Shown one piece after another: positions 2,996 through 52,365 of a stretch of DNA of 56,163 nt. The stretch comes from Candidatus Methylomirabilis lanthanidiphila (GTDB lineage Bacteria; Methylomirabilota; Methylomirabilia; Methylomirabilales; Methylomirabilaceae). A program made the position numbers and the translations under genes. The DNA is taken from positions 1 to 56,163 of the forward strand of contig CABIKM010000025.1 in the NCBI GenBank assembly GCA_902196205.1, written 5' to 3'. The notes beneath the pieces are model-generated. The model was not told where the DNA came from, did no database searches, and was given only the letters and a program-made list of their open reading frames with translations. Numbering within the stretch: the first letter of the stretch is position 1; every line of letters begins with the position of its first letter.

Positions 2996-3081
2996 CTGTG
3001 AGTCCTCTCCTTATGAATGATCGGAATTTCAAGCGGATACTACCATAGAAGCAAGACGCCTTCAATCCGAAAGCGGCGCCC

Positions 3082-3130
3082 AAATCCCCCCGGTTCCCCC
3101 CTTTTCAAAAGGGGGGTTGGGGGAGGATTT
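3082..3130. repeat. Dispersed C-run/G-run palindromic repeat, copy 2
   Basis: An inverted repeat of the same family as 91-130, with CAAATCCCCC opening and GGGAGGATTT closing around a CCCCCCTTTT/AAAAGGGGGG stem. It lies between the secA start and the terminator of the M23 peptidase gene. Confidence 0.8.
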
Positions 3131-3163
3131 CAGGACACGGCAGCGGTGCGTTCGAATCGGCAA

Positions 3164-3198
3164 CAAAAAACCCCTAGAGGACCGATCCTCTAGGGGTA
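3164..3198 (-). terminator. Rho-independent terminator of the M23 peptidase gene
   Basis: Read on the minus strand, ACCCCTAGAGGA pairs perfectly with TCCTCTAGGGGT across a TCGG tetraloop and is followed by six T residues. It starts about 35 bases after the M23 stop codon, a textbook intrinsic terminator. Confidence 0.92.
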
Positions 3199-3232
3199 TC
3201 TACTCACAATCCGCAACCAAGCGATATGAGTA

Positions 3233-4198: not shown

Positions 4199-4277
4199 CG
4201 AGCCGTATCCTTTCCAGGATTATTCCGTTCACGAATGACAGTCAACCGATAAGCAAGAAGGAGGGACAAACCGACCT

Positions 4278-4307
4278 TTTATATCAAGAACGACGAGAAA
4301 GTGTCAA
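4278..4307 (-). promoter_or_regulatory. Sigma-70-like promoter of the M23 gene
   Basis: On the minus strand TTGACA (4307-4302), an 18-base spacer and TATAAA (4283-4278) lie about 80 bases upstream of the M23 start. This is a near-consensus match. Confidence 0.7.
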
Positions 4308-4358
4308 GCCTTTTCCGTTTCTCAATGCGGCGACATTGGCGCTGTCCGAGCTCGAGGA

Positions 4359-4700
4359 TTATGATCGAAAGATGAAATAGACTGCGCCGAGCAGACACAA
4401 TGCCGCCCACACGTAATCGAGTTTAAGCGGCTGGTCCATATACAGGACGGCGAACGGCGCAAACACCGATAACGCAATGACCTCCTGCATGATTTTGAGC
4501 TGCGAGACGCTCAGTTGCGTATAGCCAATCCGATTGGCAGGCACCTGGAGCATGTACTCGAAGAGCGCAATGCCCCAGCTTGCTAATGCGGCGACGTACC
4601 ATCTCTGATGATTCAGGTTTTTCAGATGGCCGTACCACGCGAACGTCATAAACACATTTGAAAGCGCCAACAACAATCCCGTACGAAGAATAACCGCCAT
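4359..4700 (-). CDS. DUF486 family small membrane protein
   Basis: A 113-residue, very hydrophobic protein with about four transmembrane segments. The pattern (LSNVFMTFAWYGHL near the N-terminus, ASWGIALFEY and PANRIGY in the middle, VWAALCLLGAVYFIF at the end) matches the DUF486 family, which is distantly related to drug/metabolite transporters and has no established substrate. The start at 4700 is chosen because AGGGGGG lies eight bases upstream; an in-frame codon at 4730 lacks a ribosome site. Confidence 0.85.
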   Translation of the reverse strand: MAVILRTGLLLALSNVFMTFAWYGHLKNLNHQRWYVAALASWGIALFEYMLQVPANRIGYTQLSVSQLKIMQEVIALSVFAPFAVLYMDQPLKLDYVWAALCLLGAVYFIFRS

Positions 4701-4742
4701 ACAAATGTCCCCCCTGAAAGGTAAGATCAAGACGCTTGGGTG

Positions 4743-38760: not shown

Positions 38761-38885
38761 TCACTGTTCAACGTTCAAGGTTCAACGTGGACCGTTCAAG
38801 GTTCAAGGTTCAACGTGGACCGTTCAAGGTTCAAGGTTCAACGTTCAACGTTCAAAGTTCGAGGTTCGAGGTTCGAGGTTGTGAG
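38761..38885. repeat. Tandem TTCAAGGTTCAACG repeat array
   Basis: About 12 units of variants of GTTCAAGGTTCAACGT and GTTCGAGGTTCGAG lie head to tail, including two copies of CGTGGACCGTTCAAGGTTCA. Shorter pieces with the same words occur at 36676-36720 and 40070-40100, flanking other genes of the same cluster. It separates etfB from the acyl-CoA dehydrogenase gene. Confidence 0.85.
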
Positions 38886-38917
38886 TTCCGATTTAGCGCT
38901 CAGCACATGGAACTCGT

Positions 38918-40057
38918 TTAGTTCAGCAACTGATGGGCGATCACTAACCGTTGAATTTCGGACGTGCCCTCGTAGATCTCGGTGATGCGGGCGTCGCGGA
39001 ACAGCCGCTGGGCTGGAAAATCATAGAGATACCCATAGCCGCCGTGAACCTGGAGCGCCTTCGTGGCGGCCCGGTTGGCGGTCTCCGACGCGAACAGCTT
39101 TGCCATCGCCGATTCCTTGGTATGCCGAAGACCTTTGTCCTTCAGCCACGCCGCCCGATAGGTAAGTAGCCTCGCCGCCTCGATCTGCACCGCCATATCG
39201 GCAATCATCCATTGAATCGCCTGAAACGACGCAATCGGCTTATCGAAGGCAACCCGCTCCTTGGCATACCTGAGCGAGATGTCCAGCGCCGCCTGGGCGA
39301 TCCCTACCGCCTGCGCCGCAATGCCAATCCGACCGGCATCAAGGGTCATCATAGCAATCTTGAACCCTTGCCCTATCTCGCCCAGCAGGTTCTCCGCAGG
39401 CACGCGGCAATTCTCAAAGACGACCTGGCAGCAACTGGTGCCATGGAGCCCCAACTTCTTCTCCACCTTCGAGATAGTGAAGCCCGGCGTCCCCTTCTCC
39501 ACCAGGACGGCGCAGACCCCTTTGGCCCGAAGACCGCGATCGACCGTGGCAAAGACCAGCGCCAGATCAGCCTCCAAGGCGTTCGTGATGAAGTTCTTGG
39601 TCCCGTTCAGTACGAATACGTCGCCTTCCCTGCTGACCATGGTCTGCTGGGCTGACGCATCCGATCCAGCGCCCGGTTCGCTCAGCGCAAAGCAGCCGAG
39701 CAGTTTGCCGCCGGCGAGTGGGGTGAGATACCGCTGCTTTTGGGCCTCTGATCCGAACTTATACAGGGCATCAGCCACCAGCGAGTTGTTGACCGACATG
39801 ACGACGCTGGTCGAGGCGCAGGCTCGAGCGATCTCCTCCATAGCGATAGCGTAGCACACATTGTCCGACCCGGCGCCGCCGTATTCCGTAGGAATCGCCA
39901 CGCCCATCAGCCCAAGCTCCCCCATCTTCTTGACCGTCTCCTGCGGAAAGATCCCTTCTTCGTCCACCCGCTTGGCCAGCGGCGCGACTTCATTGGCAGC
40001 GAATTCGCGCACCATCTCCCGAAACAGTCGCTGCTCTTCGGTGAGCTCGAACCTCAT
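38918..40057 (-). CDS. Acyl-CoA dehydrogenase
   Basis: This flavoprotein oxidises acyl-CoA to enoyl-CoA and reduces ETF. The 379-residue protein contains CFALSEPGAGSDASA (FAD/substrate signature), the second signature QVHGGYGYLYDFPAQRLFRD, and the catalytic Glu in IYEGTSEIQRLVIA, as in short/branched-chain acyl-CoA dehydrogenases. The start at ATG 40057 has GGGGG six bases upstream. The exact chain specificity is not evident. Confidence 0.95.
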   Translation of the reverse strand: MRFELTEEQRLFREMVREFAANEVAPLAKRVDEEGIFPQETVKKMGELGLMGVAIPTEYGGAGSDNVCYAIAMEEIARACASTSVVMSVNNSLVADALYKFGSEAQKQRYLTPLAGGKLLGCFALSEPGAGSDASAQQTMVSREGDVFVLNGTKNFITNALEADLALVFATVDRGLRAKGVCAVLVEKGTPGFTISKVEKKLGLHGTSCCQVVFENCRVPAENLLGEIGQGFKIAMMTLDAGRIGIAAQAVGIAQAALDISLRYAKERVAFDKPIASFQAIQWMIADMAVQIEAARLLTYRAAWLKDKGLRHTKESAMAKLFASETANRAATKALQVHGGYGYLYDFPAQRLFRDARITEIYEGTSEIQRLVIAHQLLN

Positions 40058-40928: not shown

Positions 40929-41360
40929 TCACTTCACGATAAGGGTGATTTTCTGCGTCATGCCGGCGCCCGCCAGTGCAATATGTGCCCCGTCGGCGGC
41001 CTGCAAACACAGAGTGTGCGTACCGGGTGACAAGACCAATTCAGCTTCCAACTGTCCTTTGCCGTAGTGCAGGTGAGTGGCATCCGACGGCACCACTGCG
41101 CCGGCTGCTACGCAGTCAGTGTCCACCATGATGTGGAGATGACCCGCCCCGGCCTTCACTACACCGACGGGTTCGACGATAAAGTTCTCTGCGCCCATTG
41201 TGACCTTCACCGGGCTGATGACGGTAGCCCCATCGCTCGGCGAGGTAAAGAACACGCGGGCTTGGTTGGCGCCAAGCGTCGCGCAGGCTGAGAGCCCGGC
41301 CACGAGCAGGAGCAGAGCCAAAGCAAATTCTGATCGAGAAGTGTGCTTTGAAACGTTCAT
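40929..41360 (-). CDS. DUF4399 lipoprotein, paralog 1
   Basis: A 143-residue protein with signal peptide and lipobox (LLVAGLSAC). A DUF4399 domain follows: RVFFTSPSDGATV, then GHLHIMVDTDC, HLHYGKGQLEAEL, PGTHTLCLQAADGAH. Function is unknown. The ATG at 41360 has AGGAGG six bases upstream. A close paralog is at 44793-45227. The leaders of both are similar up to an integron-type core site and then diverge. Unlike most genes of the array it has no hairpin repeat at its 3' side. Confidence 0.88.
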   Translation of the reverse strand: MNVSKHTSRSEFALALLLLVAGLSACATLGANQARVFFTSPSDGATVISPVKVTMGAENFIVEPVGVVKAGAGHLHIMVDTDCVAAGAVVPSDATHLHYGKGQLEAELVLSPGTHTLCLQAADGAHIALAGAGMTQKITLIVK

Positions 41361-41440
41361 GATGTACCTCCTGGATGGCCAGGTTAGCCACTCCATGTAT
41401 TGGTGGATGGCTAATTGAGGTAGTGAGACTCTTGTCGACG

Positions 41441-41502
41441 GCCTAACCAGAGCATCGGAGGGCGCGTCATCTCAGCGTACCCCTGCATGCTCTCGTTAGG
41501 GG
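41441..41502 (-). other. attC-like recombination site
   Basis: Minus strand, 62 bases. The ends are CCCTAAC (41501-41495, R''-like) and GTTAGGC (41447-41441, perfect GTTRRRY R'). AGAGCAT pairs with ATGCTCT next to them, with unpaired G residues, as expected for an imperfect attC hairpin. It lies between the stop of the gene at 41534 and the leader of DUF4399 paralog 1, the position of an integron attC. Confidence 0.6.
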
Positions 41503-41533
41503 CACCCATCGGGTACGACCGCATCTATGAAGG

Positions 41534-42448
41534 TCATCGGCGCCTCGTGAGGAGGTTAGCGATGACGCCTCCAGCAACACCCAGCACAAGAGTCACCACT
41601 ACGCTGGTCAGAAGGTAGTGTCTGATGCTGAGAATGGTTGCATACCGCTCGATCTCTGTACCCAAGAGGAACACCGCATCGGGAAAAAGGTAGCCCGCGA
41701 CAGTGTAGACAGCGCCACCAGTGAACGCCATCGTCATCGAAGATGCGATCAGGAGAAACCTCTCCTTCTCCCACGGCAGCGATTTGTCATTGATTCGAAA
41801 AATATAGTCGCTCAGCGTGACAGGCGTATACTTCTCATCATTAGCAGACTGACCAGCATCATATCGACGTCTCCAGCGGAACGCGAAGGGAAGGAACACC
41901 GCGAGAAAGCCAGCCACGGCACCGATTACTGTCAGGACTATTTTGTACCAATGCGCGTAACCCCTCAAGGTATTCAATCGCTCAATTATGTCGACTTCCG
42001 TCGCAAGAACCCAATCGCGGTCAGCCCCGGATATGGAATACGAGGCTCCTTCAGAAGTTAAGGTGATATCAATACGAGGCTTGCTTCTAGTGGTGACACC
42101 CTCGTCAGCAGCACCTTCCAGCTTAGCTCGCGCGGCGATCGTGAGAGACAGGATTGGCCGGGCACTCGTGTTTTCATCATTTAATACGATCCGAAGCTCA
42201 CTCGTTTCGTAGTAAACCTTATTTGGATAGGTCACAACATACTGAACCGAGGGGGTTGCTTTCGCCGCCATGCGTTGTCGTACGATCTCATCGAGTTTAA
42301 TCAAGTCCTTTTCGCCGACGACAAGGGATCCCAATAGCTTAGCCGAGGCCGAGGCGCGTAGAACCGGGTATTCCTCGGCTGGCCACGCCTCAATTGGTTG
42401 GCTGACGATCGCTAGAACTAATAAGAAAGGTAGAACGAGACGTTTCAT
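41534..42448 (-). CDS. Membrane protein of unknown function, cassette gene
   Basis: I do not recognise this 304-residue protein. It has an N-terminal signal peptide (LVLPFLLVLAIVSQPIEAWPA), then an extracytoplasmic beta-rich domain of about 145 residues. A transmembrane segment lies near 170-190 (VLTVIGAVAGFLAVFLPFAF), with two more near 235-255 and 275-298. The last ends in a basic TRRR tail. The stop is 32 bases before an attC-like site and the start is 12 bases from a GCCTAAC core-like heptamer, so the gene looks like one unit of the array. Confidence 0.75.
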   Translation of the reverse strand: MKRLVLPFLLVLAIVSQPIEAWPAEEYPVLRASASAKLLGSLVVGEKDLIKLDEIVRQRMAAKATPSVQYVVTYPNKVYYETSELRIVLNDENTSARPILSLTIAARAKLEGAADEGVTTRSKPRIDITLTSEGASYSISGADRDWVLATEVDIIERLNTLRGYAHWYKIVLTVIGAVAGFLAVFLPFAFRWRRRYDAGQSANDEKYTPVTLSDYIFRINDKSLPWEKERFLLIASSMTMAFTGGAVYTVAGYLFPDAVFLLGTEIERYATILSIRHYLLTSVVVTLVLGVAGGVIANLLTRRR

Positions 42449-42459
42449 TATTCAGCGTT

Positions 42460-42466
42460 GCCTAAC
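42460..42466 (-). other. Integron R'-like core heptamer
   Basis: GTTAGGC on the minus strand matches GTTRRRY exactly and lies 12 bases before the start of the 41534-42448 gene. A possible R'' partner, GGCTAAC, overlaps the stop codon of the toxin gene at 42901, with ACTCAAG/CTTGAGT arms. If so, repeat A is contained between the two halves. Confidence 0.4.
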
Positions 42467-42510
42467 TTGAGTATGCTGGTTAACCCATCTTCATCGACTG
42501 TTTTCGTAGT

Positions 42511-42835
42511 CATGGCGGATTCTATTGTGTTGTTCAGTAGTTAGCAAGCGATATCTTGACTGCCGGGATGGGACACACACTGGTCGTACTCGCACCCTCG
42601 CACTTCAGCGGCGCCGGGAGGGTCCCCTGGAAATAGGACAGCCCTTTGGGGTGTCCTGTCCCCCAAAGGGCTGTGACAGATTCCTCCCGCCAGACGCAGG
42701 TCCGGTTGGCTTATCGATTCTCACCGGCCGCCATGACCACTACGCCTCGTGACCCGGAACAGGTGGCCCTGTTAGCCGTCAGGTACGTCGCCTCCGCGAT
42801 CACCTGGCGCGAGGACTCGCACCTCGCTCACTCTG
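42511..42835 (-). repeat. Array hairpin repeat, copy A
   Basis: The opening GCGGATTCTATTGTGTTGTT leads through GTTAGCAAGCGATATCTTGA to the core hairpin at 42639-42673 (CAGCCCTTTGGGG with CCCCAAAGGGCTG). A CAGACGCAGGTCCGG stem and GGTTGGCTTATCG follow. The right 100 bases, with GGAACAGGTGGCCCTGT, are shared with copy B only. It lies 3' of the toxin gene 42901-43164. Confidence 0.9.
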
Positions 42836-42900
42836 CGTCATGCCCACACCGGATAGCCTGAGCGGCGCGCGATTTCTGCGCGTGAGACTCAAGACTGTGG

Positions 42901-43164
42901 TTAGCCCTGTTGCTCGATGAGTCGCCCATATTCATCGTGGGGACCGATCCAGACCCAGATGCAATCCGCCCCATCCTCGACTGACAGCGCCCGATGATGA
43001 GGCCCAGCTCTCACAGACCAAAGTTTGCCGACCTTTTTGAAGTGCAGCGAAGGGTGCGCGGGGTTTCCTTGCAGAAGATTGAAGTTTCGTCGAGCCACTC
43101 TCTGAACAGTGTGTGGAAGGTGCGTGAAACACACCCAAAAACGAGCTGTTGTGCGATGTTTCAC
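42901..43164 (-). CDS. ParE/RelE-like toxin of a type II module
   Basis: An 87-residue protein of the ParE-like fold: FWVCFTHLPHTVQRVARRNF, NPAHPSLHFKKVG, KLWSVRAGPHHRAL, DGADCIWVWIGPHDEY. These proteins usually act as toxins paired with a small upstream antitoxin. It starts at GTG 43164, which overlaps the TGA of the antitoxin gene, so the two are translationally coupled. Confidence 0.82.
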   Translation of the reverse strand: MKHRTTARFWVCFTHLPHTVQRVARRNFNLLQGNPAHPSLHFKKVGKLWSVRAGPHHRALSVEDGADCIWVWIGPHDEYGRLIEQQG

Positions 43165-43361
43165 AGGTCCTTGAGAGTTCCCTTGTCTTTCGCGTCAAGT
43201 GCCTCACGTACCAGGAAATCTAGTTTCCCGGCCTCAGAGTCAGCTTTGATTTCTTCGTCCCACCTCTCCCAATCCTTCTCTGACAGCCACCTGACAAGTT
43301 CGGTAAGCTCCTCCTTAGGAAGCCGCTCGATTTCGGTCTTGATTTCGTCCACTTTTGACAT
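43161..43361 (-). CDS. Antitoxin-like protein paired with the ParE-like toxin
   Basis: A 66-residue, highly charged helical protein (MSKVDEIKTEIERLPKEELT, then LVRWLSEKDWERWDEE). Similar short acidic proteins precede ParE-like toxins of this type. The start at ATG 43361 has GGAGG a few bases upstream. No DNA-binding fold is obvious. Confidence 0.72.
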   Translation of the reverse strand: MSKVDEIKTEIERLPKEELTELVRWLSEKDWERWDEEIKADSEAGKLDFLVREALDAKDKGTLKDL

Positions 43362-43545
43362 GTTCTTACCTCCTGCCAGAACTTCGGAATACCAATTCAC
43401 CGAAGCTGAAATCCCGGAACACACCAGCTCTCAGTCAAACTCAGTATGCCACACCTACGCCTTGAACGCTACCCTCGCTGCGCGGTAGAGGGCTATCTAT
43501 CGAGTCTACTGGTCAGCCGATCTCCATTACCTATTTTTGCAGCTC

Positions 43546-43856
43546 TGGCGGATTCCTTTGTGTTGTTCAGTAGTGAGCAGAGATATCTTCACTGCCGAGA
43601 TGGGACAAGCACTGGCCGCGCTCATAGTCCCTTGCTTCAGAAGCTCCGAGAGGGTCCCCTGGAAACAGGACAGCCCTTTGGGGCTTCCCGTCCCCAAAGG
43701 GCTGTGCCAGATTCCGCCCGCCGGACGCGGGTCTGGTTGGCTTATCAGTTCGCACCAGCCGCCATAACCACTCCTCCTCGTCACTCGGAACAGGTGGCCC
43801 TGTCTGCCGCCAGGCAAGTCGGCTCCGCGATGACCCGGCGCGAGAGATCTCACCTC
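43546..43856 (-). repeat. Array hairpin repeat, copy B
   Basis: It runs from GGCGGATTCCTTTGTGTTGT through TTCAGTAGTGAGCAGAGATA to the core hairpin 43671-43704 and continues into the right extension shared with copy A (ACTCGGAACAGGTGGCCCTG, CTCCGCGATGACC). It lies 3' of the mazF-like gene. Confidence 0.9.
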
Positions 43857-43886
43857 CTGAAACGCTAAGTGAAGTCATGAACTGTT

Positions 43887-44213
43887 CTACGGTGCCAGTC
43901 CTAACTGAACTTTGATCGCCTGCTCAACGCCTTTTACGGCAGCGCTGGACAAGCGACCCGCGCGGCTTAGCAGCCGCATCTTACTTACGGTCGTCAGTTG
44001 ATCTGCCATGGCTTTATTCCTCTTCCCCTCGATCATGACGTATGCTTCGCTCGGGTAAAGGTGATCCACCGAGGTGGTTAAGGGTACAACCTGGACGCGG
44101 TTCAGGTGCTTATTTGAAGCGTCGTTGCTGACGATCACTGCCGGTCGCCGCTTTTGAATCTCGCCGCCGATTGACGGGTCGAAATTCACCCACCACACCT
44201 CACCTCGCTTCAT
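43887..44213 (-). CDS. mazF: MazF/PemK-family mRNA interferase toxin
   Basis: A 108-residue protein with the MazF pattern: KRGEVWWVNFDPSIGGEIQK, RRPAVIVSNDASN, VVPLTTSVDHLYPSE, ADQLTTVSKMRL. Known members cleave RNA at specific short sequences. The start at ATG 44213 overlaps the antitoxin gene; a TTG at 44219 is also possible. Confidence 0.92.
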   Translation of the reverse strand: MKRGEVWWVNFDPSIGGEIQKRRPAVIVSNDASNKHLNRVQVVPLTTSVDHLYPSEAYVMIEGKRNKAMADQLTTVSKMRLLSRAGRLSSAAVKGVEQAIKVQLGLAP

Positions 44214-44430
44214 CGGCAACGTCTCCGACCGTAGCTTCAGCCCACTCCAATGCCTCGGCTTCCCGCGCTTCTTCTTGCGCCATCTGACGATAGGCCGTTT
44301 CCAAGTCCTTACCGATCACATGAGGGCGCACCAGTGACTCCACAAACCGGCTGATGCGCCGTCGCCCAGCGACCCTGTGGAGGCCGGCATAGACCCGCTC
44401 GTCGATCGTCACGGTCAGTTTTTTCTGCAT
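44200..44430 (-). CDS. MazE-like ribbon-helix-helix antitoxin
   Basis: A 76-residue protein with a ribbon-helix-helix start (KKLTVTIDERVYAGLHRVAG, RRRISRFVESLVRPHV) and an acidic C-terminal toxin-binding tail (QEEAREAEALEWAEA). The ATG at 44430 has GGAGG five bases upstream. Its gene precedes and overlaps mazF. A promoter with a TATACGTATA palindrome lies just upstream, suggesting autoregulation. Confidence 0.88.
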   Translation of the reverse strand: MQKKLTVTIDERVYAGLHRVAGRRRISRFVESLVRPHVIGKDLETAYRQMAQEEAREAEALEWAEATVGDVADEAR

Positions 44431-44458
44431 GCTTTCCTCCCATCTCAATACGTGTTTG

Positions 44459-44494
44459 TATACGTATAGTAACTTAAAGCGCCATACGAGGCAA
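44459..44494 (-). promoter_or_regulatory. Promoter and palindromic operator of the mazEF-like cassette
   Basis: Minus strand: TTGCCT (44494-44489), a 17-base spacer and TACTAT (44471-44466). The palindrome TATACGTATA (44459-44468) overlaps the -10, as expected for an antitoxin-binding site. It sits between repeat C and the antitoxin start. Confidence 0.55.
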
Positions 44495-44502
44495 GCGCGG
44501 AT

Positions 44503-44790
44503 TCCAACGGGTTGTTCAGTAGTTAGCAAGAGATATCTTTACTGCCGAGACGGGACACACACGGGCCGCGCGCACACTCTCTTACTTCCGAAGCTCCGAG
44601 AGGGTCCCCTGGAAACAGGACAGCCCTTTGGGGCTTGTCGTATCCCAAAGGGCTGTAACAGCTTCTTCCCGCTGGACGCGGGTTCGGTTGGCTTCTCGGT
44701 TCTCACCGGCCGCGAGGGGTTATATGGGCCACACTTACCACCGACCGCCGTGCCCTGGCAGACCGAGTGCGGCCGCCTGTTCGCCCGCCT
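44503..44790 (-). repeat. Array hairpin repeat, copy C
   Basis: GCGCGGATTCCAACGGGTTG, then GTTCAGTAGTTAGCAAGAGA, with the core hairpin at 44621-44655 (loop GCTTGTCGTAT). The right extension (GGCCACACTTACCACCGACC, TGTTCGCCCGCC) is shared with copy D but not with A or B. It ends at the stop of DUF4399 paralog 2. Confidence 0.9.
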
Positions 44791-44792
44791 GT

Positions 44793-45227
44793 TCACTTCA
44801 CGGTAAGAGTGATTTTCTGCGTCATACCAGCGCCAGCCAGCGCAATATGTGCTCCGTCGGCAGCCTGTAAACACAGGGTGTGCGTGCCAGGTGACAAGGC
44901 CAATTCAGCCTCCAACTGTCCCTTGCCATAGTGCCGGTGAGCGTCATCAAACGGCACCACTTGGCCGGCTGGTACGCAATCAGTGTCCACCATGATGTGA
45001 AGATGACCCGCCCTGGCCTTGACTGTACCGGCGGGTTCGACGATAAAGTTTTCTGTGCCCATTGTGACCTTCACTGGGCTGGCGACGGTGGCCCCATCGC
45101 TTGGCGAGGTAAAGAACACGCGGGCTTGGCTAGTGGCACCGATCGTCGCGCAGGCCGAGAGCCCGGCCACGAGCAGGAGCAGAGCCAAGGTAAATTCTGA
45201 TCGAGAAGTGTGTTTTGAACCGTTCAT
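44793..45227 (-). CDS. DUF4399 lipoprotein, paralog 2
   Basis: A 144-residue near-twin of the protein at 40929-41360, with the same signal peptide and lipobox (LLVAGLSAC) and DUF4399 segments (GHLHIMVDTDC, HRHYGKGQLEAEL, PGTHTLCLQAADGAH). The ATG at 45227 has AGGAGG six bases upstream. Here the gene has an array repeat (copy C) directly at its 3' side. Two copies in one array may reflect cassette duplication. Confidence 0.88.
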   Translation of the reverse strand: MNGSKHTSRSEFTLALLLLVAGLSACATIGATSQARVFFTSPSDGATVASPVKVTMGTENFIVEPAGTVKARAGHLHIMVDTDCVPAGQVVPFDDAHRHYGKGQLEAELALSPGTHTLCLQAADGAHIALAGAGMTQKITLTVK

Positions 45228-45307
45228 GATGCACCTCCTGGATGGCTAGATGAACCACACTATTCGCTGGCCGATGACTCATTGAGGGAGTGCAACTCTT
45301 GTCGGCG

Positions 45308-45403
45308 GCCAAACGGTTAAGCTCACCGACGGCAATGAAGCGCTGCAGAATTGCCGTCCGGTGCAGCGCCTTGTCAGTCATAAGTTTTATCGCTTAATGG
45401 CCC
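45308..45403 (-). other. attC-like folded element upstream of DUF4399 paralog 2
   Basis: The plus strand opens with GCCAAAC (minus GTTTGGC, one base off GTTRRRY) and folds as nested arms. These are GCCA with TGGC, TTAAGC with GCTTAA, and CACCGACGGCAAT with ATTGCCGTCCGGTG around a GAAGCGCTGCAGA loop. Similarity to the leader of paralog 1 stops exactly at this heptamer. The structure resembles a long attC, but the distal core is not canonical. Confidence 0.4.
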
Positions 45404-45439
45404 GTATGCGTTCGGCTCGTTTCTCTAGTTCCGATGCCT

Positions 45440-45712
45440 GCGTATCTCGGAACGGCCGAGATGGGATGGACACTGGTCGTGCTCACAATCGTTTGCTTCA
45501 GCAGCGCCTGGAGGGTCCCCTGGAAACAGGACAGCCCTTTGGGGCTTCCCGTCCCCCAAAGGGCTGCGACAGCTTCCTCCCGCCGGACGCGGGTCCGGTT
45601 GGCTTATCGGTGCTCACTGACCACCAGGAGCCGGATATCGGCCACACTTACCATCGAACGCTGACCCCTTGGCGGGCCCGAGTGCAGTCGCTTGTTCGCC
45701 CGCCAGGTTGAC
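45440..45712 (-). repeat. Array hairpin repeat, copy D
   Basis: The left part is shortened and diverged. The core hairpin is at 45532-45566 (CAGCCCTTTGGGG, loop CTTCCCGTC), then CCGGACGCGGGTCCGG and GTTGGCTTATCGG. The right extension (GGCCACACTTACCATCGAAC) matches copy C. It abuts the stop of the gene at 45716. Confidence 0.88.
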
Positions 45713-45715
45713 GAT

Positions 45716-45961
45716 TTACGCCTTGGCCGCCGCCTTCTTCTGCGCGCCTGGGATTTTCCTCAACCGGATCACCAACCGAAGAGCCTCGTTGACGGCTTCG
45801 TCGGTCGGAAACGACTCCGCAACGTCAGGAGCCAGCAGAACGAGGTTCGTTCCTTCCTGATACCGGTCTGCGTACTTCCCTCGGACACCGCCCTTGAGCT
45901 GCGAAAGATCGTATTCCTCACGCAGGTCGTCATCTATTGGTTTGGCCGATGGTTTCTTCAT
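45716..45961 (-). CDS. Small protein downstream of brnTA, antitoxin-like
   Basis: An 81-residue protein with DLREEYDLSQLKGGVRGKYA, then GTNLVLLAPDVAESFPTDEA and a basic Ala/Lys tail. Proteins with the YDxSxLKGGVRGKY pattern are common near toxin-antitoxin loci and resemble antitoxins, but their function is not established. The ATG at 45961 overlaps the brnA stop (ATGA), making this the third gene of a coupled brnT-brnA operon. Confidence 0.75.
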   Translation of the reverse strand: MKKPSAKPIDDDLREEYDLSQLKGGVRGKYADRYQEGTNLVLLAPDVAESFPTDEAVNEALRLVIRLRKIPGAQKKAAAKA

Positions 45962-46176
45962 GCTGCAGGTATCCACTTCATGGCCAAGCGACGCTTTGAC
46001 GCCGCACAATCGCGAAGATACATATTAATCAGCGTCTGATATGGGAGGCTTACCTCTTCGGCGAGTGCTCTAAAATATTCGATGGTGGCATCATCTACCC
46101 GGATGGTGAGCTGTCTCTTCACCCGCTTGGCGTACGGATTCCGTGTGGCCTTTGAGAAGTCATAGCTCTTTCTCAT
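45958..46176 (-). CDS. brnA: BrnA-like antitoxin
   Basis: A 72-residue ribbon-helix-helix protein: MRKSYDFSKATRNPYAKRVK, then QLTIRVDDATIEYFRALAEE and YQTLINMYLRDCA. This is the BrnA type that neutralises BrnT. It overlaps brnT by four bases. Confidence 0.88.
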   Translation of the reverse strand: MRKSYDFSKATRNPYAKRVKRQLTIRVDDATIEYFRALAEEVSLPYQTLINMYLRDCAASKRRLAMKWIPAA

Positions 46177-46469
46177 ATTCTTCTCCTTCGCATGTATTGT
46201 GATGTCTCTGATTTAGTGGCCTTCCAGACAGAGATGATGCGGACCGTATCCGATTCTTCGCGATAACAGTGACATACAACGAGCAGTCGAGCAATCGCGC
46301 TAAGGCCTAAAAGCAGAAAACGATCTTCATCTTCCGAGTGATCGGGATCATGCATGAACAAGGCATTATCGTCGGCGAATACTGTCTGGCCTTCTTCGAA
46401 TGAGACGCCATGCTTCCTCTGGTTGATCACGTTCTTTCTTTCGTCCCAGACAAAGCGAATGGCACCCAT
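46173..46469 (-). CDS. brnT: BrnT-family ribonuclease toxin
   Basis: A 98-residue protein with the BrnT pattern: IRFVWDERKNVINQRKHGVS, FEEGQTVFADDNALFMHDPD, then SEDEDRFLLLG and RIISVWKATKSE. BrnT is a RelE-fold RNase. The start lies close to the predicted transcription start, so the mRNA may be leaderless. First gene of a three-gene operon. Confidence 0.93.
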   Translation of the reverse strand: MGAIRFVWDERKNVINQRKHGVSFEEGQTVFADDNALFMHDPDHSEDEDRFLLLGLSAIARLLVVCHCYREESDTVRIISVWKATKSETSQYMRRRRI

Positions 46470-46475
46470 ATTTAC

Positions 46476-46504
46476 AACATACCTACAATGCCACTACACG
46501 TCAA
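46476..46504 (-). promoter_or_regulatory. Promoter of the brnTA operon
   Basis: Minus strand: TTGACG (46504-46499), a 17-base spacer and TATGTT (46481-46476), ending about seven bases before the brnT ATG. Hairpin repeat copy E begins right behind the -35. Confidence 0.5.
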
Positions 46505-46630
46505 GTCTCTGTTGCCGGCTTCAAAAGCTTCCGGAAGGTCCCCTGGAAACAGGTCAGCCCTTTGGGGCTTCCTGTCCCCCAAAGGGCTGTGACAGATTCC
46601 TCCCGCCAGACGCGGGTCCGGTTGGCTTAT
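46505..46630 (-). repeat. Array hairpin repeat, copy E (shortened left end)
   Basis: It starts near GTCTCTGTTGCCGGCTTC, keeps the GGTCCCCTGGAAACAGG segment and the core hairpin at 46555-46589, then CAGACGCGGGTCCGG and GTTGGCTTAT. The long left end with GTTCAGTAGTTAGCAAG is missing. It lies 3' of the ribbon-helix-helix antitoxin gene. Confidence 0.88.
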
Positions 46631-46668
46631 GTAGGGATCCGCGTAAACCCTTTGTCCGGTGGCTCCCT

Positions 46669-46905
46669 TCAAATCTTGTCGCGGTTCTCGGGCTCAACGT
46701 CCGGAACCTTAGACAGGGCACGATCGAATTTCGCTCGGCTGGCGCGCTTCGCCCTCTGGGACAAATAGTCTTCCGTCTCAAGGGCCGAGATTTTTTCGGC
46801 CAGAGCAGAGGCTGCAAATTGGTTGATGGATATCCGGTCCTTCTTGGCAAGTTTTCGGATTCTTTCGTGGAGAGAGTCGGGTAGCCTCAGGCTGATTGTA
46901 CTCAT
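46669..46905 (-). CDS. Ribbon-helix-helix antitoxin of a PIN module
   Basis: A 78-residue protein starting STISLRLPDSLHERIRKLAK, a ribbon-helix-helix DNA-binding motif, with SINQFAASALAEKIS and a charged tail. ATG 46905 shares one base with the stop of the PIN gene and has GGAG seven bases upstream. The toxin gene comes first, the reverse of the usual vapBC order. Confidence 0.85.
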   Translation of the reverse strand: MSTISLRLPDSLHERIRKLAKKDRISINQFAASALAEKISALETEDYLSQRAKRASRAKFDRALSKVPDVEPENRDKI

Positions 46906-47330
46906 CACAAATCTCCTATCCTGCGCAGGAACTCTTTCGGGGTGAGAACTCCGATATCGAATTCCTCAGCTCCTGTGAAATCTCTCTGGTTGTATGTCAC
47001 GATAAAGTCGCAACCAGCAGCGGCCGCCAATTCGAGAACCATGTCGTCCTTTGGATCACGAAGCAACGGTCGCCACAGGTAATAAATCTTCCTATGCCTG
47101 GCCACGGCACAGACGAAATCCAGGATGTCATCAATGTCTCTGGCCGAAGGCCCCCCTCGGCGGACCGTCCTTTTTGCAGCTTTCTCGTATTCAATAACCA
47201 AGGGAACTGAAACGCTGATCTCAAACCGGCTGTCTCCCAAGAGCCGCAGCAGTCTGAATGAGGCCCCTCTCTTCGATCGTAATGCCGAGACAAGGACGTT
47301 TGTATCGATGACAATCTGCAAGCTCTTCAT
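46905..47330 (-). CDS. PIN-domain toxin, COG1569 type
   Basis: A 141-residue PIN nuclease. Acidic active-site residues are visible in VIDTNVLVSAL, in IEYEKA, and in RDPKDDMVLELAAAAGCDFIVTYN. Such proteins act as tRNA or mRNA endonucleases in toxin-antitoxin modules. A perfect 20-base palindrome lies directly before the start codon, leaving no room for a Shine-Dalgarno site. Confidence 0.9.
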   Translation of the reverse strand: MKSLQIVIDTNVLVSALRSKRGASFRLLRLLGDSRFEISVSVPLVIEYEKAAKRTVRRGGPSARDIDDILDFVCAVARHRKIYYLWRPLLRDPKDDMVLELAAAAGCDFIVTYNQRDFTGAEEFDIGVLTPKEFLRRIGDL

Positions 47331-47331
47331 T

Positions 47332-47351
47332 ATGGTATTATATATAATACC
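47332..47351 (-). promoter_or_regulatory. Perfect 20-base operator palindrome of the PIN module
   Basis: ATGGTATTATATAATACCAT is fully self-complementary and contains TATAAT. TTGACT lies upstream at about 15 bases. The palindrome starts two bases before the PIN ATG. It probably binds the ribbon-helix-helix antitoxin and covers the -10 region, with a leaderless transcript. Confidence 0.65.
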
Positions 47352-47379
47352 ATTAGCTCAGTCAAGTAAGGACGTTCAC

Positions 47380-47515
47380 CGTCGTGCTGACACTCTCGTG
47401 CTTCAGCAGCTCCGGAAGGTCCCCTGGAAACAGGACAGCCCTCTGGGGCTTCCCGTACCCCAAAGGGCTGTGACAGCTTCCTTGCACTGGACGCGGGTCC
47501 GGTTGCCTGGGCGGA
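47380..47515 (-). repeat. Array hairpin repeat, copy F (shortened)
   Basis: It starts near GTCGTGCTGACACTCTCGTG, has GGTCCCCTGGAAACAGG, the core hairpin at 47436-47470 (left arm CAGCCCTCTGGGG) and CTGGACGCGGGTCCGGTTG. It lies 3' of the HigA gene and 5' of the PIN operator. Confidence 0.87.
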
Positions 47516-47582
47516 GCTGCGACACACCGCAGGCCCACCGCTGAGCGCTCTAACAGGCGATGGCGTCGGCACGAGCGACGAA

Positions 47583-47876
47583 TTACGCCGCGGTAAGCCG
47601 AACCTTACTCACCTTTCCGAGCTTGACCCGCTGCCTGGCCTGCCAAAGATCATAGTTGTACTGCATGGCCAGCCAACTCTCCGGGGAGCGGCCGAGCGCC
47701 TTCGAAAGGCGCAGCGCCATTTCCGGGCTGATGCCGCTGGTACCCTTCAGGATACGATTCAGCGTGGAGGCGGACACACCGAGCTTGGCGGCAAGCCCGC
47801 GACCACTCAGGTGGTTCGGTTCAAGATACACCTCGGCGATGAATTCTCCGGGATGGGGAGGATTGTGCATACCCAT
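47583..47876 (-). CDS. higA: HigA-family antitoxin
   Basis: A 97-residue XRE-type protein: MHNPPHPGEFIAEVYLEP, then a helix-turn-helix in GRGLAAKLGVSASTLNRILK and ISPEMALRLSKALGRSPESW. This is the classic HigA pattern. It follows higB with an overlap of start and stop codons. Confidence 0.94.
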   Translation of the reverse strand: MGMHNPPHPGEFIAEVYLEPNHLSGRGLAAKLGVSASTLNRILKGTSGISPEMALRLSKALGRSPESWLAMQYNYDLWQARQRVKLGKVSKVRLTAA

Positions 47877-48154
47877 CAGTGATAGTCCTCATAGTCCAGG
47901 ACGTAGGCGTGTCCGTCTCTGAACTCGAATGTTACACGCCAGTTTGCATTGACCCACACCGACCAGCGGCCCCGTTCAGCGCCTTTCAACGGGTGAAGAC
48001 GAAACCCCGGAACGTTCATGTCCTCAACGGACTGAGACGTATCCAATGCGATTAGGAGCATCCGAAGCCGCTGCGCGTGGGGGGGTTGAATTCCCGCCGC
48101 GTTTCCCGACTCAAAGAACTTCCTGAGTCCCTTGTGTCGGAATGACTGAATCAT
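47876..48154 (-). CDS. higB: HigB-family toxin
   Basis: A 92-residue RelE-superfamily protein: MIQSFRHKGLRKFFESGNA, RMLLIALDTSQSVEDMNVPG, FRLHPLKGAERGRWSVWVN, and a terminal VLDYEDYH. HigB toxins cleave mRNA on the ribosome. The gene is first in the higBA pair and has its own promoter. Confidence 0.94.
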   Translation of the reverse strand: MIQSFRHKGLRKFFESGNAAGIQPPHAQRLRMLLIALDTSQSVEDMNVPGFRLHPLKGAERGRWSVWVNANWRVTFEFRDGHAYVLDYEDYH

Positions 48155-48160
48155 ACGTTA

Positions 48161-48189
48161 ATAATAGCGCGTTGCGCATCACGCGACAA
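48161..48189 (-). promoter_or_regulatory. Promoter of higBA
   Basis: Minus strand: TTGTCG (48189-48184), a 17-base spacer and TATTAT (48166-48161). The -35 begins one base after a GTTAAGC core-like heptamer at 48197-48191. Confidence 0.55.
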
Positions 48190-48190
48190 G

Positions 48191-48197
48191 GCTTAAC
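48191..48197 (-). other. Integron R'-like core heptamer upstream of higBA
   Basis: GTTAAGC on the minus strand is an exact GTTRRRY match placed between repeat G and the higB promoter, the position expected for the 3' end of a cassette recombination site. The far partner is not obvious, so a chance match is possible. Confidence 0.35.
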
Positions 48198-48219
48198 TAT
48201 GACCTATACCGATCGCACC

Positions 48220-48470
48220 GTCTTCATCAACTATTGTCAGCCGTAGCGGATTCTTTGGAGTTGTTCAGTGGTTAGCAAGAGATGTCTTGGCTGCCCGGAT
48301 GGGACACACACTGGTCATGCTCACCTGCTCGTGCTTCAGACGCTCCGGGAGGGTCGCCTGGAAACAGGACAGCCCTTTGGGGCTTCCCGTCCCTCAAAGG
48401 GCTGCGACAGATTCCTCCCGCCGAACGCGGGGCCGGTTGGCTTATCGATGCTCACCGGCCGCTATGCCCC
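48220..48470 (-). repeat. Array hairpin repeat, copy G
   Basis: A long copy: TCTTCATCAACTATTGTCAG and GCGGATTCTTTGGAGTTGTT match the far left of copy A, then GTTAGCAAGAGATGTCTTGG, the core hairpin at 48370-48404 and CGAACGCGGGGCCGG. The MFS transporter gene ends within its right edge. Confidence 0.9.
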
Positions 48471-49697
48471 CGGAGCGCTTGCTCTCTCTTCGGGCGGCTT
48501 GAGCGATTGGAACTGGCGATACAACACTAGGTCGTAGATGATTTTTAAACTACCTGCGATCACGAAAGGTGCGCCGATAAGTACGGGATTCGCCAGCAAC
48601 AAACCGCTGAGTACCGGTGATAGCGATGCACCGACCGACCGGGCTATCGTTGTGACCCCGGATGCGGCAGAACGTTCGTCAGGAGACACGACCGCCATGG
48701 TATACGACTGACGGGTGGGCACATCCATCTGTGAAATACTGAAACGTAGAAGAAGCACACCGATCGCTAACGGCAAATTGGGCATGAACGGCACGAGACA
48801 CAGCAACACATTCGAGGGAATATGTGTGAACACCATTGTCCTAATCAGGCCGATCCGTGCCGCGATGCGGGCAGCCAATAACGCCGAGATACCTGCCAGG
48901 ACGTTCGCACCAAAGAAGATGCTGCCGAGTATACCGACGTCAATTCCAAATCTGACGTGAAACCAGTACGCTATAAGGCTCTGAATCACAAACCCACCCG
49001 CGAACGCATCCAACGCAAACAGGCCGCTCAGCTTCATCACCACGCCTTTAGAACGATGCAGCCCAAACATGCGATGGGCAGGCACACGGCCGGCTCTCGT
49101 TTCAACCGATGACGACAGGCACAGAAACGTTGAGGCAAGCAGTACCCCGCTCATAGCGTAGCCAATCAATACGACACGGTACGACTCGAGCGGTGAAAAA
49201 CCGGACCCCTGCAGGGTGTGAGCCAGCCAGCCACCGCCCAACGCGCCTGACGCCGTCGCAAATGAACCGACAAGGTTATACCACGCAAACACGTGGGTAC
49301 GTCGTTCGTTTGGCAGGAGCTGGGAGAGAGCGGCCTGTTCAATGGACAAAAACGGACCGATTTCGTTTCCACTTGGGCTGATGACACCAATAATCGCGGC
49401 GACGATCAAGAGGATGGGGTTGCGAGTGAGGACGAAAGCCGCACCTGCCACAACCATCAATGTCGCGCCCAGCACCAGCATTCGTCGTCTGCCGAACCTG
49501 TCGGCTGACGTGGTAATCCAGAGCGAAATCCCCACGTCGCCAACCAGCGTCAGGCTCAGCAGTAAGCCTATGGCTTGTTCGCTCAGGCCGAGTTGCGCCA
49601 GATACAATGTCAACACAACAGACAAGAAGCCGTATGCGAACAAGCGCATGATGCGCGCGACAAATAACAGCGCAATGTCAATCTGTGAACGCGTCAT
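48462..49697 (-). CDS. MFS transporter, cassette gene
   Basis: A 411-residue protein with 12 predicted transmembrane segments. The loop-2 motif reads TTSADRFGRRRML, typical of major facilitator efflux proteins, and a long central loop separates the halves. It resembles drug-efflux-type MFS members, but the substrate is unknown. The stop codon lies inside the right edge of repeat G. Confidence 0.88.
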   Translation of the reverse strand: MTRSQIDIALLFVARIMRLFAYGFLSVVLTLYLAQLGLSEQAIGLLLSLTLVGDVGISLWITTSADRFGRRRMLVLGATLMVVAGAAFVLTRNPILLIVAAIIGVISPSGNEIGPFLSIEQAALSQLLPNERRTHVFAWYNLVGSFATASGALGGGWLAHTLQGSGFSPLESYRVVLIGYAMSGVLLASTFLCLSSSVETRAGRVPAHRMFGLHRSKGVVMKLSGLFALDAFAGGFVIQSLIAYWFHVRFGIDVGILGSIFFGANVLAGISALLAARIAARIGLIRTMVFTHIPSNVLLCLVPFMPNLPLAIGVLLLRFSISQMDVPTRQSYTMAVVSPDERSAASGVTTIARSVGASLSPVLSGLLLANPVLIGAPFVIAGSLKIIYDLVLYRQFQSLKPPEERASAPGA

Positions 49698-49764
49698 TGG
49701 GTTTGCCTCGTCAAATCATTGCCTGGCAATAAGGACAGAGGGCGTCATATACAATCCTCGTCGC

Positions 49765-49875
49765 GCTCACATTCTCGTGCTTCATGGGTTCCGGCAGGGG
49801 CCACCGGAAACAGGACAGCCCTTTGGGGCTCACCATACCCCCAAAGGGCTGTACAGATTTCTCTCGATCGCGACT
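49765..49875 (-). repeat. Array hairpin repeat, copy H (short)
   Basis: GCGCTCACATTCTCGTGCTT, then CCGGAAACAGGA and the core hairpin at 49816-49851 (loop CTCACCATACC). The CCGGAC stem on the right is lost. It lies between the MFS gene start and the ankyrin gene stop. Confidence 0.8.
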
Positions 49876-49885
49876 TCGTTGGAGG

Positions 49886-50398
49886 CTATTCCTTGGCCCC
49901 GGCATTCTTGAGAAGTTGCACGATCTCGTTTTCGTCCCTGTTAAATGCTATCATCATGGCCGTTACACCGTTGTTCGTTTTAGCGTTCACGTCCGCGCCA
50001 TGTGCGAGCAGCAGTTCTACGACCTCGCGGTGGCCTTCCTGAGACGCCCACAGCAAGGCCGTTGCGCCGTTACTCTGTCTGGCGTTCACATCCGTGCCCT
50101 CCGCAATCAGCAGCTCGACGACCTCCCGATGACCTGCCAGCGCCGCTCTCATCATGGCCGTCCAGCCCTCGTCGGATTTGATGTGTATCCAGGCGCCATG
50201 CTTGATCAGTACCTTCACCACCTCGAGGCGGCCTCTGAGAGACGCTCTCATCAAGGCCGTCCAGCCATATTCATCCCTGGCATTCACATTCGCGCCCTTC
50301 GCGATCAGCGCCTCCACCGCCTCGGGACCGCCTTCCTGAGCCAGTTTCATTAAGGCTGTTCTGCCATGCCTATCTGCGGCATTCACATCATCGCTCAT
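49886..50398 (-). CDS. Ankyrin repeat protein
   Basis: A 170-residue protein made of five consecutive ankyrin repeats, visible as GRTALMKLAQEGG, GWTALMRASLRGR, GWTAMMRAALAGHREVVELL, GATALLWASQEGHREVVELL and GVTAMMIAFNRDENEIVQLL. There is no signal peptide. It is probably a protein-binding adaptor with unknown partner. The ATG at 50398 has GGAGGG seven bases upstream. Confidence 0.92.
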   Translation of the reverse strand: MSDDVNAADRHGRTALMKLAQEGGPEAVEALIAKGANVNARDEYGWTALMRASLRGRLEVVKVLIKHGAWIHIKSDEGWTAMMRAALAGHREVVELLIAEGTDVNARQSNGATALLWASQEGHREVVELLLAHGADVNAKTNNGVTAMMIAFNRDENEIVQLLKNAGAKE

Positions 50399-50413
50399 AG
50401 TTGCTCCCTCCTT

Positions 50414-50471
50414 CGCGGATTTTATTGTGTGCTTCAGCAGTTGGCAAGCGATATCTGAACTGCCGAGACGG
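50414..50471 (-). repeat. Array repeat, partial copy I (left end only)
   Basis: CGCGGATTTTATTGTGTGCT, TTCAGCAGTTGGCAAGCGAT and ATCTGAACTGCCGAGACGG match the left end of copies A, B, C and G. The central hairpin is missing. After it comes a short CTAGCGC...GTGCTAG inverted repeat (50482-50514) before a plus-strand gene. Confidence 0.7.
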
Positions 50472-50607
50472 ACGAACACCTAGCGCTTGACGCCTCAGAG
50501 GGCCTGTGCTAGAAGAAACGCACCACACACACGGGGCGGGACGGGTCGACCGGCAGGTGCGGGTCTTTCTACGGGGTCACGCAAGCCACAGTAACTACGG
50601 AGTCGCT

Positions 50608-51186
50608 ATGGATCGTGATGCATTCATCAAAGAGCTCGAAGGGCTGCGCGGCTGTGAGTTTAGGTACCTCCACGAAAGCCAGAGGATTGAGAATCTGGTG
50701 CAGTCGTACCTGGACTCCCCAAAGCTTCATAGCCTTGATGGCAATAAGCAGCTTCTCTATCACCTGCTGAACTCTGAATACGCTCCTCTTCAGCGGGTCG
50801 CTCGGACCGGCCTGCAGCCTGGCGGATTTTTGGTAAGCAGGTTCCCGCGGGTCGGACATTGGATCGTGTACGCCGGGTTCATCACAATTTGGGCAGTCAG
50901 TATCGGGTATGCGCTTTCCCCGTACAGATCATCTCAGGCGTGGGCCCTGCTTATTCCGCTGTTAGGCTTTACGATCTACCACCTGCGCGGCTGGTTACGA
51001 CTGAGAGCGCTCACGGCTGAAGTGCGGGAGCTTTTCGATCGCGAGATCTTGCCCGGTCATTTCGACCCGGCGAGCATGTTCGAGCGTCTTCGCGCGCTGG
51101 CGCAAAAGGGATTAAAGGTTCATCCGAACGTCTTTGCGCTGCTTCAGCTACAGCAACATCTACAAAGCCCGCCGGCCGGCCTCTGA
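50608..51186 (+). CDS. Protein of unknown function with two membrane segments
   Basis: Not recognised. The 192-residue frame starts at ATG 50608 with CGGAG five bases upstream. It has a charged N-terminal half of about 85 residues (including CEFRYLHESQRIENLVQSYL). Two transmembrane segments lie near 88-107 (WIVYAGFITIWAVSIGYAL) and 113-130 (AWALLIPLLGFTIYHLR). A soluble C-terminal helix-rich part of 60 residues follows. It is the only gene of the array region on the plus strand. Confidence 0.7.
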   Translation: MDRDAFIKELEGLRGCEFRYLHESQRIENLVQSYLDSPKLHSLDGNKQLLYHLLNSEYAPLQRVARTGLQPGGFLVSRFPRVGHWIVYAGFITIWAVSIGYALSPYRSSQAWALLIPLLGFTIYHLRGWLRLRALTAEVRELFDREILPGHFDPASMFERLRALAQKGLKVHPNVFALLQLQQHLQSPPAGL

Positions 51187-51196
51187 TTTCAAACGA

Positions 51197-51643
51197 TTAT
51201 GGCAACGTCAATCGAGTAATCACATCGCCATGCTGAGGGAATTGCTCAATAAGCGATTGGCGATGACCAAGCTCGAAGAGTTCAAAATGAAATGCCGGCG
51301 CGCACACCACTGATCCAAATGCGTAGGGCACTCCCTCGTCGATTTCAGCAGCTTGCCAACAGTTTTTCGGGACGGCGATCACCGGGTATTCGCCCGCCAA
51401 AATGTCACGTCCCAACGTGAGCGACTTGAGGCTGCCTGTCGTATCAATGATATGAAGCGTGATCCTCCCGTAATGAATGTACCAGAGCTCTTCATTGTTG
51501 AGGACACGATGGAATGCTGAACACGTCCCCGGAAGCATCAACCAGTGGCCGGAGGTCCGATATTCATCGCGATGGGTCTCGACAAATTTTAACCCCTCCG
51601 GGTGGTCGTACCAATCGTAACGTGTGATGAGTGTATCGAGCAT
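51197..51643 (-). CDS. Cupin-5 (DUF985-like) family protein
   Basis: A 148-residue protein with a cupin fold pattern: DWYDHPEGLKFVETHRDEYR, LPGTCSAFHRVLNNEELWYI, HYGRITLHIID, FGSVVCAPAFHFELFELG. DUF985 members have no established general function. The start is taken at ATG 51643; the frame is open further upstream but without homology. Confidence 0.8.
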   Translation of the reverse strand: MLDTLITRYDWYDHPEGLKFVETHRDEYRTSGHWLMLPGTCSAFHRVLNNEELWYIHYGRITLHIIDTTGSLKSLTLGRDILAGEYPVIAVPKNCWQAAEIDEGVPYAFGSVVCAPAFHFELFELGHRQSLIEQFPQHGDVITRLTLP

Positions 51644-51674
51644 GGTTCCGAAGAATGGTTGAACTATGATATCG

Positions 51675-51989
51675 TCACGTGAAGCCGACCAGCAGCCCAC
51701 TCGTAATTGTCACACATGATTTCGCAGCGCCAATTCCGTCGGGTGTGGGTTCAGATACACCTGGCCCTTGAGTCAGACGAATGTAGCCGTGTCGTTGCAC
51801 GAGCTGAATCGACTCCCGCGGCGTGCCCATACCGATCTCAACCTCCGGGCACACGGGCACCCATTCGACCAACCTGCCAAGCGTATCGGTCAGGAACCGA
51901 TCGCGCTTATGCCCGCCGTCGTAACGGACCTTGTCGCCCGACAGACACGTCGAGATGCCGATGCGGATCGGCCCGGCAGTAATTTGCAT
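51675..51989 (-). pseudogene. 5' fragment of a DUF523 family gene
   Basis: From ATG 51989 the frame reads IRIGISTCLSGDKVRYDGGH, then RDRFLTDTLGRLVEWVPVCP and EIGMGTPRES, the DUF523 N-terminal half. After about 70 residues the sequence stops resembling the family and ends at 51675. The missing C-terminal part suggests a deletion at the junction with the cupin gene. The start touches repeat copy J. Confidence 0.75.
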
Positions 51990-52110
51990 CGATATGCTGG
52001 AGATTTCCCTGGAGACAGGACGACCCTTTGAGGTCACCGTACCCCAAAGGGCCGCAACAGCTTACTTCTGCTGAACTCTGCTCGGCGTCGTTTGTCGCCC
52101 CTCACCAGCC
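51988..52110 (-). repeat. Array hairpin repeat, copy J (diverged)
   Basis: CTGGAGATTTCCCTGGAGAC, then the core hairpin at 52021-52054 with altered arms (CGACCCTTTGAGG and CCCCAAAGGGCCG) and CAGCTTACTTCTGCTG, ending TCACCAGCCGCTATGAC. It is the most diverged and last copy, just 3' of the small membrane protein gene. Confidence 0.75.
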
Positions 52111-52111
52111 G

Positions 52112-52365
52112 CTATGACTTCTTATCTCTGTCGAGATCTGCCAGCTCGGGATGCCAGATCCATTTCCCGTGAATCCGCTCTAACCGTCGCGCCATCATAT
52201 AGCCAGTCCATAGCAGCCCCCAGAAGACCCCTACACACCCCAAAAAGAAAAGCCAGTGACCGACCAGAAAAGCTGGAATCATTCCCAGTACGAGGCTCAC
52301 ACCGGACAGGATCGCGGCAAGAAATCGAAGTTTCGCTCCACGCTCAATTTTTTTTCATCACTCAT
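52112..52365 (-). pseudogene. Small two-TM membrane protein with a poly-A frameshift
   Basis: The intact C-terminal frame (52112-52300) encodes LVLGMIPAFLVGHWLFFLGC and VFWGLLWTGYMMARRLERIH, two membrane segments. Upstream, ATG 52365 begins MSDEKK in another frame. The two join if a run of eight A residues (52355-52348, minus strand) had nine, giving a coherent 84-residue protein. GGAGG lies about 11 bases before that ATG. It is therefore either a recently broken gene, a slippage-expressed one or a sequence error. Family unknown. Confidence 0.65.

Follow-up and report, generated by a model that had tools for sequence, protein, structure and literature searches.

Organization of the locus

The window, i.e. 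the whole analysed stretch of 56,163 nucleotides from contig C25 of Candidatus Methylomirabilis lanthanidiphila (G000), contains an attC-like hairpin which is flanked on the left by a DUF4399 gene and an enoyl-CoA hydratase gene and on the right by a gene for a protein of 304 amino acids, followed by ca. 10 kb of small units (Table 1). The region 42508-52118 comprises about nine units, mostly toxin-antitoxin modules of the ParE-like, MazF-like, BrnT, PIN and HigBA types; its unit content varies among G001, G003, G005 and G009, with the flanking genes kept. The relatives sharing genes of the window are recorded as Candidatus Methylomirabilota (NC10). At 38808-38870, short tandem repeats of the GTTCAAC/GGTTCAAG type are found beside an acyl-CoA dehydrogenase gene (stretch 38808-38956).

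Inspection of the 304-aa protein by eye suggested a signal peptide and several hydrophobic segments. The protein has no match in Pfam or NCBIfam and no relatives in the genome contig scan, its gene occurs in none of the 94 other genomes of the phylum, and viral contigs scanned with the 304-aa and DUF4399 proteins gave no match for either. The G+C content of the proposed cassette is 53% compared to 59% for the window, and no homologue of the cassette was found elsewhere.

Table 1. Coordinates and properties of the features discussed in the text.
Feature	Position	Strand	Remarks
attC-like site, probably a degenerate attC	41441..41501	-	cassette 3' end; boxes R'' CCCTAAC, L'' CATGCAGG, L' CCGATG, R' GTTAGGC; based on sequence, fold, covariance and common boundary
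proposed single integron cassette, 1,019 bp	41447..42465	-	between two G/TTAGGC cores (slash, junction); homology breaks
304-aa orphan gene of the cassette	41534..42448	-	no known family
GTTAGGC core, cassette 5' boundary	42460..42466	-	start codon 11 nt further
terminator-plus-promoter repeat block, one of about nine	42508..42738	-	repeats between toxin-antitoxin units; not attC
DUF4399 gene copy 1	40929..41396	-	PF14347; unit begins at R' core 41447
DUF4399 gene copy 2	44793..45227	-	protein 88% identical to copy 1
clear attC	45308..45379	-	R1 31.4 bits, E 1e-4 in 193 kb; R2 34.5 bits
3' remnant of a truncated gene	45387..45452	-	reading frame ending in ..RDTQASELEKRAERIRAIKR and a stop codon; cassette closed by attC 45308-45379
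own integron (L010, contig C37)	integrase 5079-6158		four attCs between 322 and 4032

The attC-like hairpin

The minus strand from 41501 to 41441 is composed of CCCTAAC GAGAG CATGCAGGGG...CCCTCCGATG CTCTG GTTAGGC (complete sequence: CCCTAACGAGAGCATGCAGGGGTACGCTGAGATGACGCGCCCTCCGATGCTCTGGTTAGGC). Reading and folding on both strands bore out the inverted repeat with CCCTAAC and GTTAGGC ends described in the first-pass annotation, and its orientation proved correct for a minus-strand gene; the repeat itself, however, measures 61 nt, the 62 bases originally given including one additional C. The R and L arms are paired in the folds of both strands, with -16.6 kcal/mol (z -2.8) for the plus and -14.8 kcal/mol (z -1.9) for the minus strand. 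Read along the gene, the 5-nt spacers and the box sizes fit an attC. The extra G announced for the inner arm is present on the gene strand between AGCAT and CAG (CAT-G-CAG) and provides the R''-L'' arm with an extrahelical base; on the bottom strand this base is a C, and a G is usual for the extrahelical base on attC bottom strands. The extra L'' base resides on the 5' arm along the gene, as in an attC of the genome's own integron for which the gene direction is known. The proposed agreement with RYYYAAC and GTTRRRY cores holds in full at one end: GTTAGGC (41447-41441) conforms to the R' core at a cassette junction and homology breaks there, whereas CCCTAAC, which pairs with GTTAGGC at 6 of 7 positions, starts with C and not with R. 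Furthermore, the central spacer, expected to be unpaired, is paired at four of five positions, and at least four paired positions were observed in only 2 of 74 control attCs. Full spacer pairing in VCR2/1 lowers recombination 27-fold but does not abolish it (PMC2727003), from which reduced rather than absent recombination would be expected of the site.

Two covariance models, R1 and R2, were made in this analysis with short calibration and differ from the published IntegronFinder model. R1 was derived from 22 attCs: plasmid integrons supplied nine (seven of class 1 and two cyanobacterial), and phylum contigs with an integrase the other 13; the phylum sites were chosen by stem score, which biases the model towards good stems, and the attCs of the genome under study were excluded. 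Covariation in this set is strong (89% of cells paired; 49 double-change cells vs 18 in shuffles). The genus model R2 was built from 60 R1 matches. The hairpin obtained 13.7 bits with R1 (E 1.5 in 193 kb); R2 gave it 17.2 bits on the plus strand (E 0.053) and 12.3 bits on the minus strand (E 0.86), both in 56 kb and with no filters. R2 favours the plus strand, opposite to the gene, and all scores lie below the covariance threshold at the level of chance matches. The four attCs adjacent to the integron integrase of this genome obtained 44, 40, 36 and 32 bits with R1, and the only clear attC within the window is that at 45308-45379, which the first-pass annotation of the hairpin does not list. 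An Rfam search yielded one tRNA only and no attC match, and a DNA search of the own genome revealed no second copy of the site. In view of the low covariance score and the mostly paired spacer, the original qualification of the attC as "convincing" is not supported.

These properties raise the question whether the hairpin is a chance or terminator-like inverted repeat between ordinary genes whose GTTAGGC ends are coincidental. Low covariance scores and a spacer paired as in a plain hairpin agree with such a reading. With a simple stem score of 17-18 the hairpin is the best of the window, but a score of at least 17 is reached about once per 15 random windows of 56 kb and the hairpin taken alone is therefore only mildly unusual. 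However, when the GTT core is fixed, its stem score is attained by only 2 of the 1330 window cores and by 6 of 2223 cores from elsewhere (p ca. 0.002-0.003, i.e. a probability of ca. 0.2-0.3% for a fixed core, with null distributions drawn from the window and selected loci). Moreover, the minus strand of the entire 56 kb contains just two copies of GTTAGGC, at 41441 and 42460, one at either end of the same gene, and a T run as in a terminator is absent behind the hairpin. Finally, homology of the DUF4399 unit sets in at the very base where the hairpin terminates, and in two other copies clear attCs mark this boundary (see below). A chance repeat thus appears unlikely.

Homology boundaries in relatives

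The DUF4399 unit is present in two copies in the window (starting at 41447 and 45314) and in one copy in the relative G003 (L145/L149). Counted from the GTT core onwards, the first 20 nt of the three units show 75-90% identity, as against 15-30% in the 20 nt preceding the core. Each of them is preceded by a different attC or attC-like site, namely the hairpin 41441-41501, the 34.5-bit site, whose R' core GTTTGGC begins DUF4399 copy 2, and a 28.3-bit site in G003, all ending at the same GTT. At the other end of the 304-aa gene, the homology of the adjacent promoter block stops at 42467-42469, beside the GTTAGGC core 42466-42460. The 304-aa unit has a core at either end and, in the comparison with relatives, is there or missing as one block. 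G001 lacks 41411-42457 and contains instead a truncated DUF262-like unit (named by eye) after a GTTCGGC core. In G003, a YceI-family cassette delimited by two cores occupies the equivalent place, its gene being located between ...CACTCAATAG/TTCGGC and its attC of 28.3 bits. In G010, an attC of 24.8 bits lies ca. 3.6 kb upstream of the same enoyl-CoA hydratase gene. Upstream of DUF4399 in G005, GTTTGAG is present and no attC match was obtained; a strictly empty site of the form ...ACTCAAG/TTAGGCCGTCGACAAG was not found in the relatives. The cassette boundary that the first-pass annotation had expected in relatives is thus observed, with homology breaking at the core and other cassettes at the equivalent place. 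One of the two further heptamers it listed, 42466-42460, turned out to be the 5' boundary of this same cassette.

Based on these comparisons, we consider it rather probable that 41441-41501 is the weak or degenerate attC of a single integron cassette (41447-42465) carrying the 304-aa orphan gene. The position at the DUF4399 homology boundary is better evidence for this assignment than the attC score. The simplest account would be a single cassette placed by an integron integrase at a core that separates the promoter block from DUF4399, its attC having been poor from the start or having decayed. The unit is classified here as a cassette of integron type; the site is treated as attC-derived, not as a regular attC, because an unpaired central spacer and a covariance score above the threshold, both defining features of attC, were not found.

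The same boundaries might also arise if it was the DUF4399 unit that travelled as a cassette and came to lie behind different attCs, the 304-aa unit being the older resident. Two copies in the window and one in G003, each directly behind an attC or attC-like site, would be compatible with this scenario. However, the DUF4399 units contain no 3' attC, and G000, G001 and G005 all have copy 1 next to the enoyl-CoA hydratase gene. In other phyla, no attC was found in the vicinity of DUF4399 relatives, for which reason DUF4399 as a cassette in those phyla was rejected. We regard mobility of the DUF4399 unit as highly improbable.

Toxin-antitoxin units and promoter blocks

The repeats between the toxin-antitoxin units are up to 231 nt long and contain a strong hairpin, ACAGCCCTTTGGGG/CCCCAAAGGGCTGT, followed by TTGCTA-N17-TAGAAT. 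The hairpin looks like a terminator and TTGCTA-N17-TAGAAT like a sigma-70 promoter. No attC-like repeats were detected at the toxin-antitoxin units, and the covariance score of the repeat blocks never exceeded 13.3 bits. An interpretation of the 231-nt repeats as long attCs was rejected, as they have no covariance support and resemble a terminator plus promoter. Likewise, a reading of the repeat block as an attI homologous to an integrase locus was not supported: a BLAST search with the block against the loci analysed yielded nothing in L010, the integron locus of C37, and the single block located close to a recombinase fragment (L007) has CATAGCTCTG at its end and lacks GTT. The second of the further heptamers, GTTAAGC at 48197-48191, lies at the homologous end of a promoter block and is probably due to chance, as it is missing from the orthologous units of G003 and G009.

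In principle, the entire 41-50 kb region could be one integrase-less integron array in which the toxin-antitoxin units are cassettes with heavily decayed attCs. Small genes on the same strand, toxin-antitoxin modules, the clear attC 45308-45379 and the hairpin 41441-41501 within the region as well as the numerous attCs in the genus are in line with such an array. On the other hand, the repeat blocks reach at most 13.3 bits and resemble a terminator hairpin plus a sigma-70-like promoter, and GTTRRRY at 48197 is not kept in G003 and G009, which renders an array of this extent very unlikely. The toxin-antitoxin units appear to be something other than integron cassettes and are devoid of attC; the placement of the hairpin at "the start of the array" is not supported if an integron array is meant.

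Integrases in the genome and a proposed mechanism

An intact integron integrase gene is present on contig C37 of the same genome (TIGR02249, 469.5 bits; cut-off 265). In the C37 integron (322-6158) the integrase gene and the cassettes point the same way. The window's contig C25 gave no match for an integron integrase, and neither an integrase gene nor an attI was found beside the attC-like site. Within the genus, an integron integrase above the cut-off is encoded in 2 of 15 genomes, the second gene having an internal stop codon, and 14 of the 15 contain 6-29 attC matches each at E <= 1, a few of which may be chance matches, the sites listed having E values of ca. 0.01 or less. Another stretch of the genome (L160, G000:C22:121000-133500) harbours a C-terminal recombinase fragment near 123194, a promoter block and three attCs on one strand (39-48 bits) and is possibly an integron remnant. 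An integron paper on the phylum was not found in the literature searched.

Beyond the directly observed site, the two cores, the homology breakpoints, the differing cassettes and attCs in relatives and the intact integrase gene, we infer an integrase as the agent, a secondary (attG-like or attI-like) target and any remaining recombination of the hairpin. We propose that the folded attC of a circular cassette was joined to a G/TT core with the promoter block on one side and the DUF4399 unit on the other. The enzyme would be an integron integrase, perhaps the intact one of C37 or a past one. The resulting order would be promoter block, G/TTAGGC, gene, attC-like hairpin, G/TTAGGC and DUF4399. In integrons, Pc drives the captured cassette genes; by analogy, the block promoter could drive the captured gene. 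It is conceivable, albeit rather doubtful, that this chromosomal landing site at the end of the promoter block before DUF4399 has repeatedly captured different cassettes in the genus far from an integrase, the block serving as a promoter plus attI-like target. The proposed cassette would represent a lone integron cassette in a chromosome of the NC10 phylum and a natural example of one place outside integrons being occupied by different cassettes, as predicted by the attG idea. It would also imply that comparing boundaries among relatives can reveal an attC even if covariance scoring alone would leave it unreported.

Comparison with known systems

The 304-aa unit resembles class 1 integron cassettes (aadA2, dfrA12, aac(6')-Ib) in having one gene between two GTTRRRY cores, a short leader and a hairpin just after the stop codon; its leader of 11 nt and the 32 nt from the stop codon to the attC-like site are as compact as in known integron cassettes. 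Like class 1 attCs, the site 41441-41501 possesses 7-nt R boxes, 5-nt spacers and one extra L'' base. In contrast to class 1, the covariance score is weak, the central spacer mostly paired, R'' starts with C, and integrase and attI are absent alongside. The L boxes of 41441-41501 and of one attC from the own C37 integron (L010:1993-2052) have GCATGCAG ... GATGC in common; unlike the former, the C37 attCs reach 32-44 bits and have an intact integrase gene next to them.

The location of an attC far from an integrase gene is reminiscent of CALINs and single attCs (IntegronFinder, PMC9024848); according to the same paper, true positives may include solitary attCs. Unlike in CALINs, the cassettes described here are single and occupy a recurring chromosomal position beside DUF4399. 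Insertion of cassettes at attG or secondary sites (Loot et al. 2024, as cited in PMC12901181) and off-target integrase sites (PMC10127599) provide a further parallel: the 304-aa cassette likewise displays an integrase-type G/TT junction outside an integron platform. In comparison with the attG cases, the present candidate site is distinguished by its location downstream of a conserved promoter block and by the different cassettes found there in related species.
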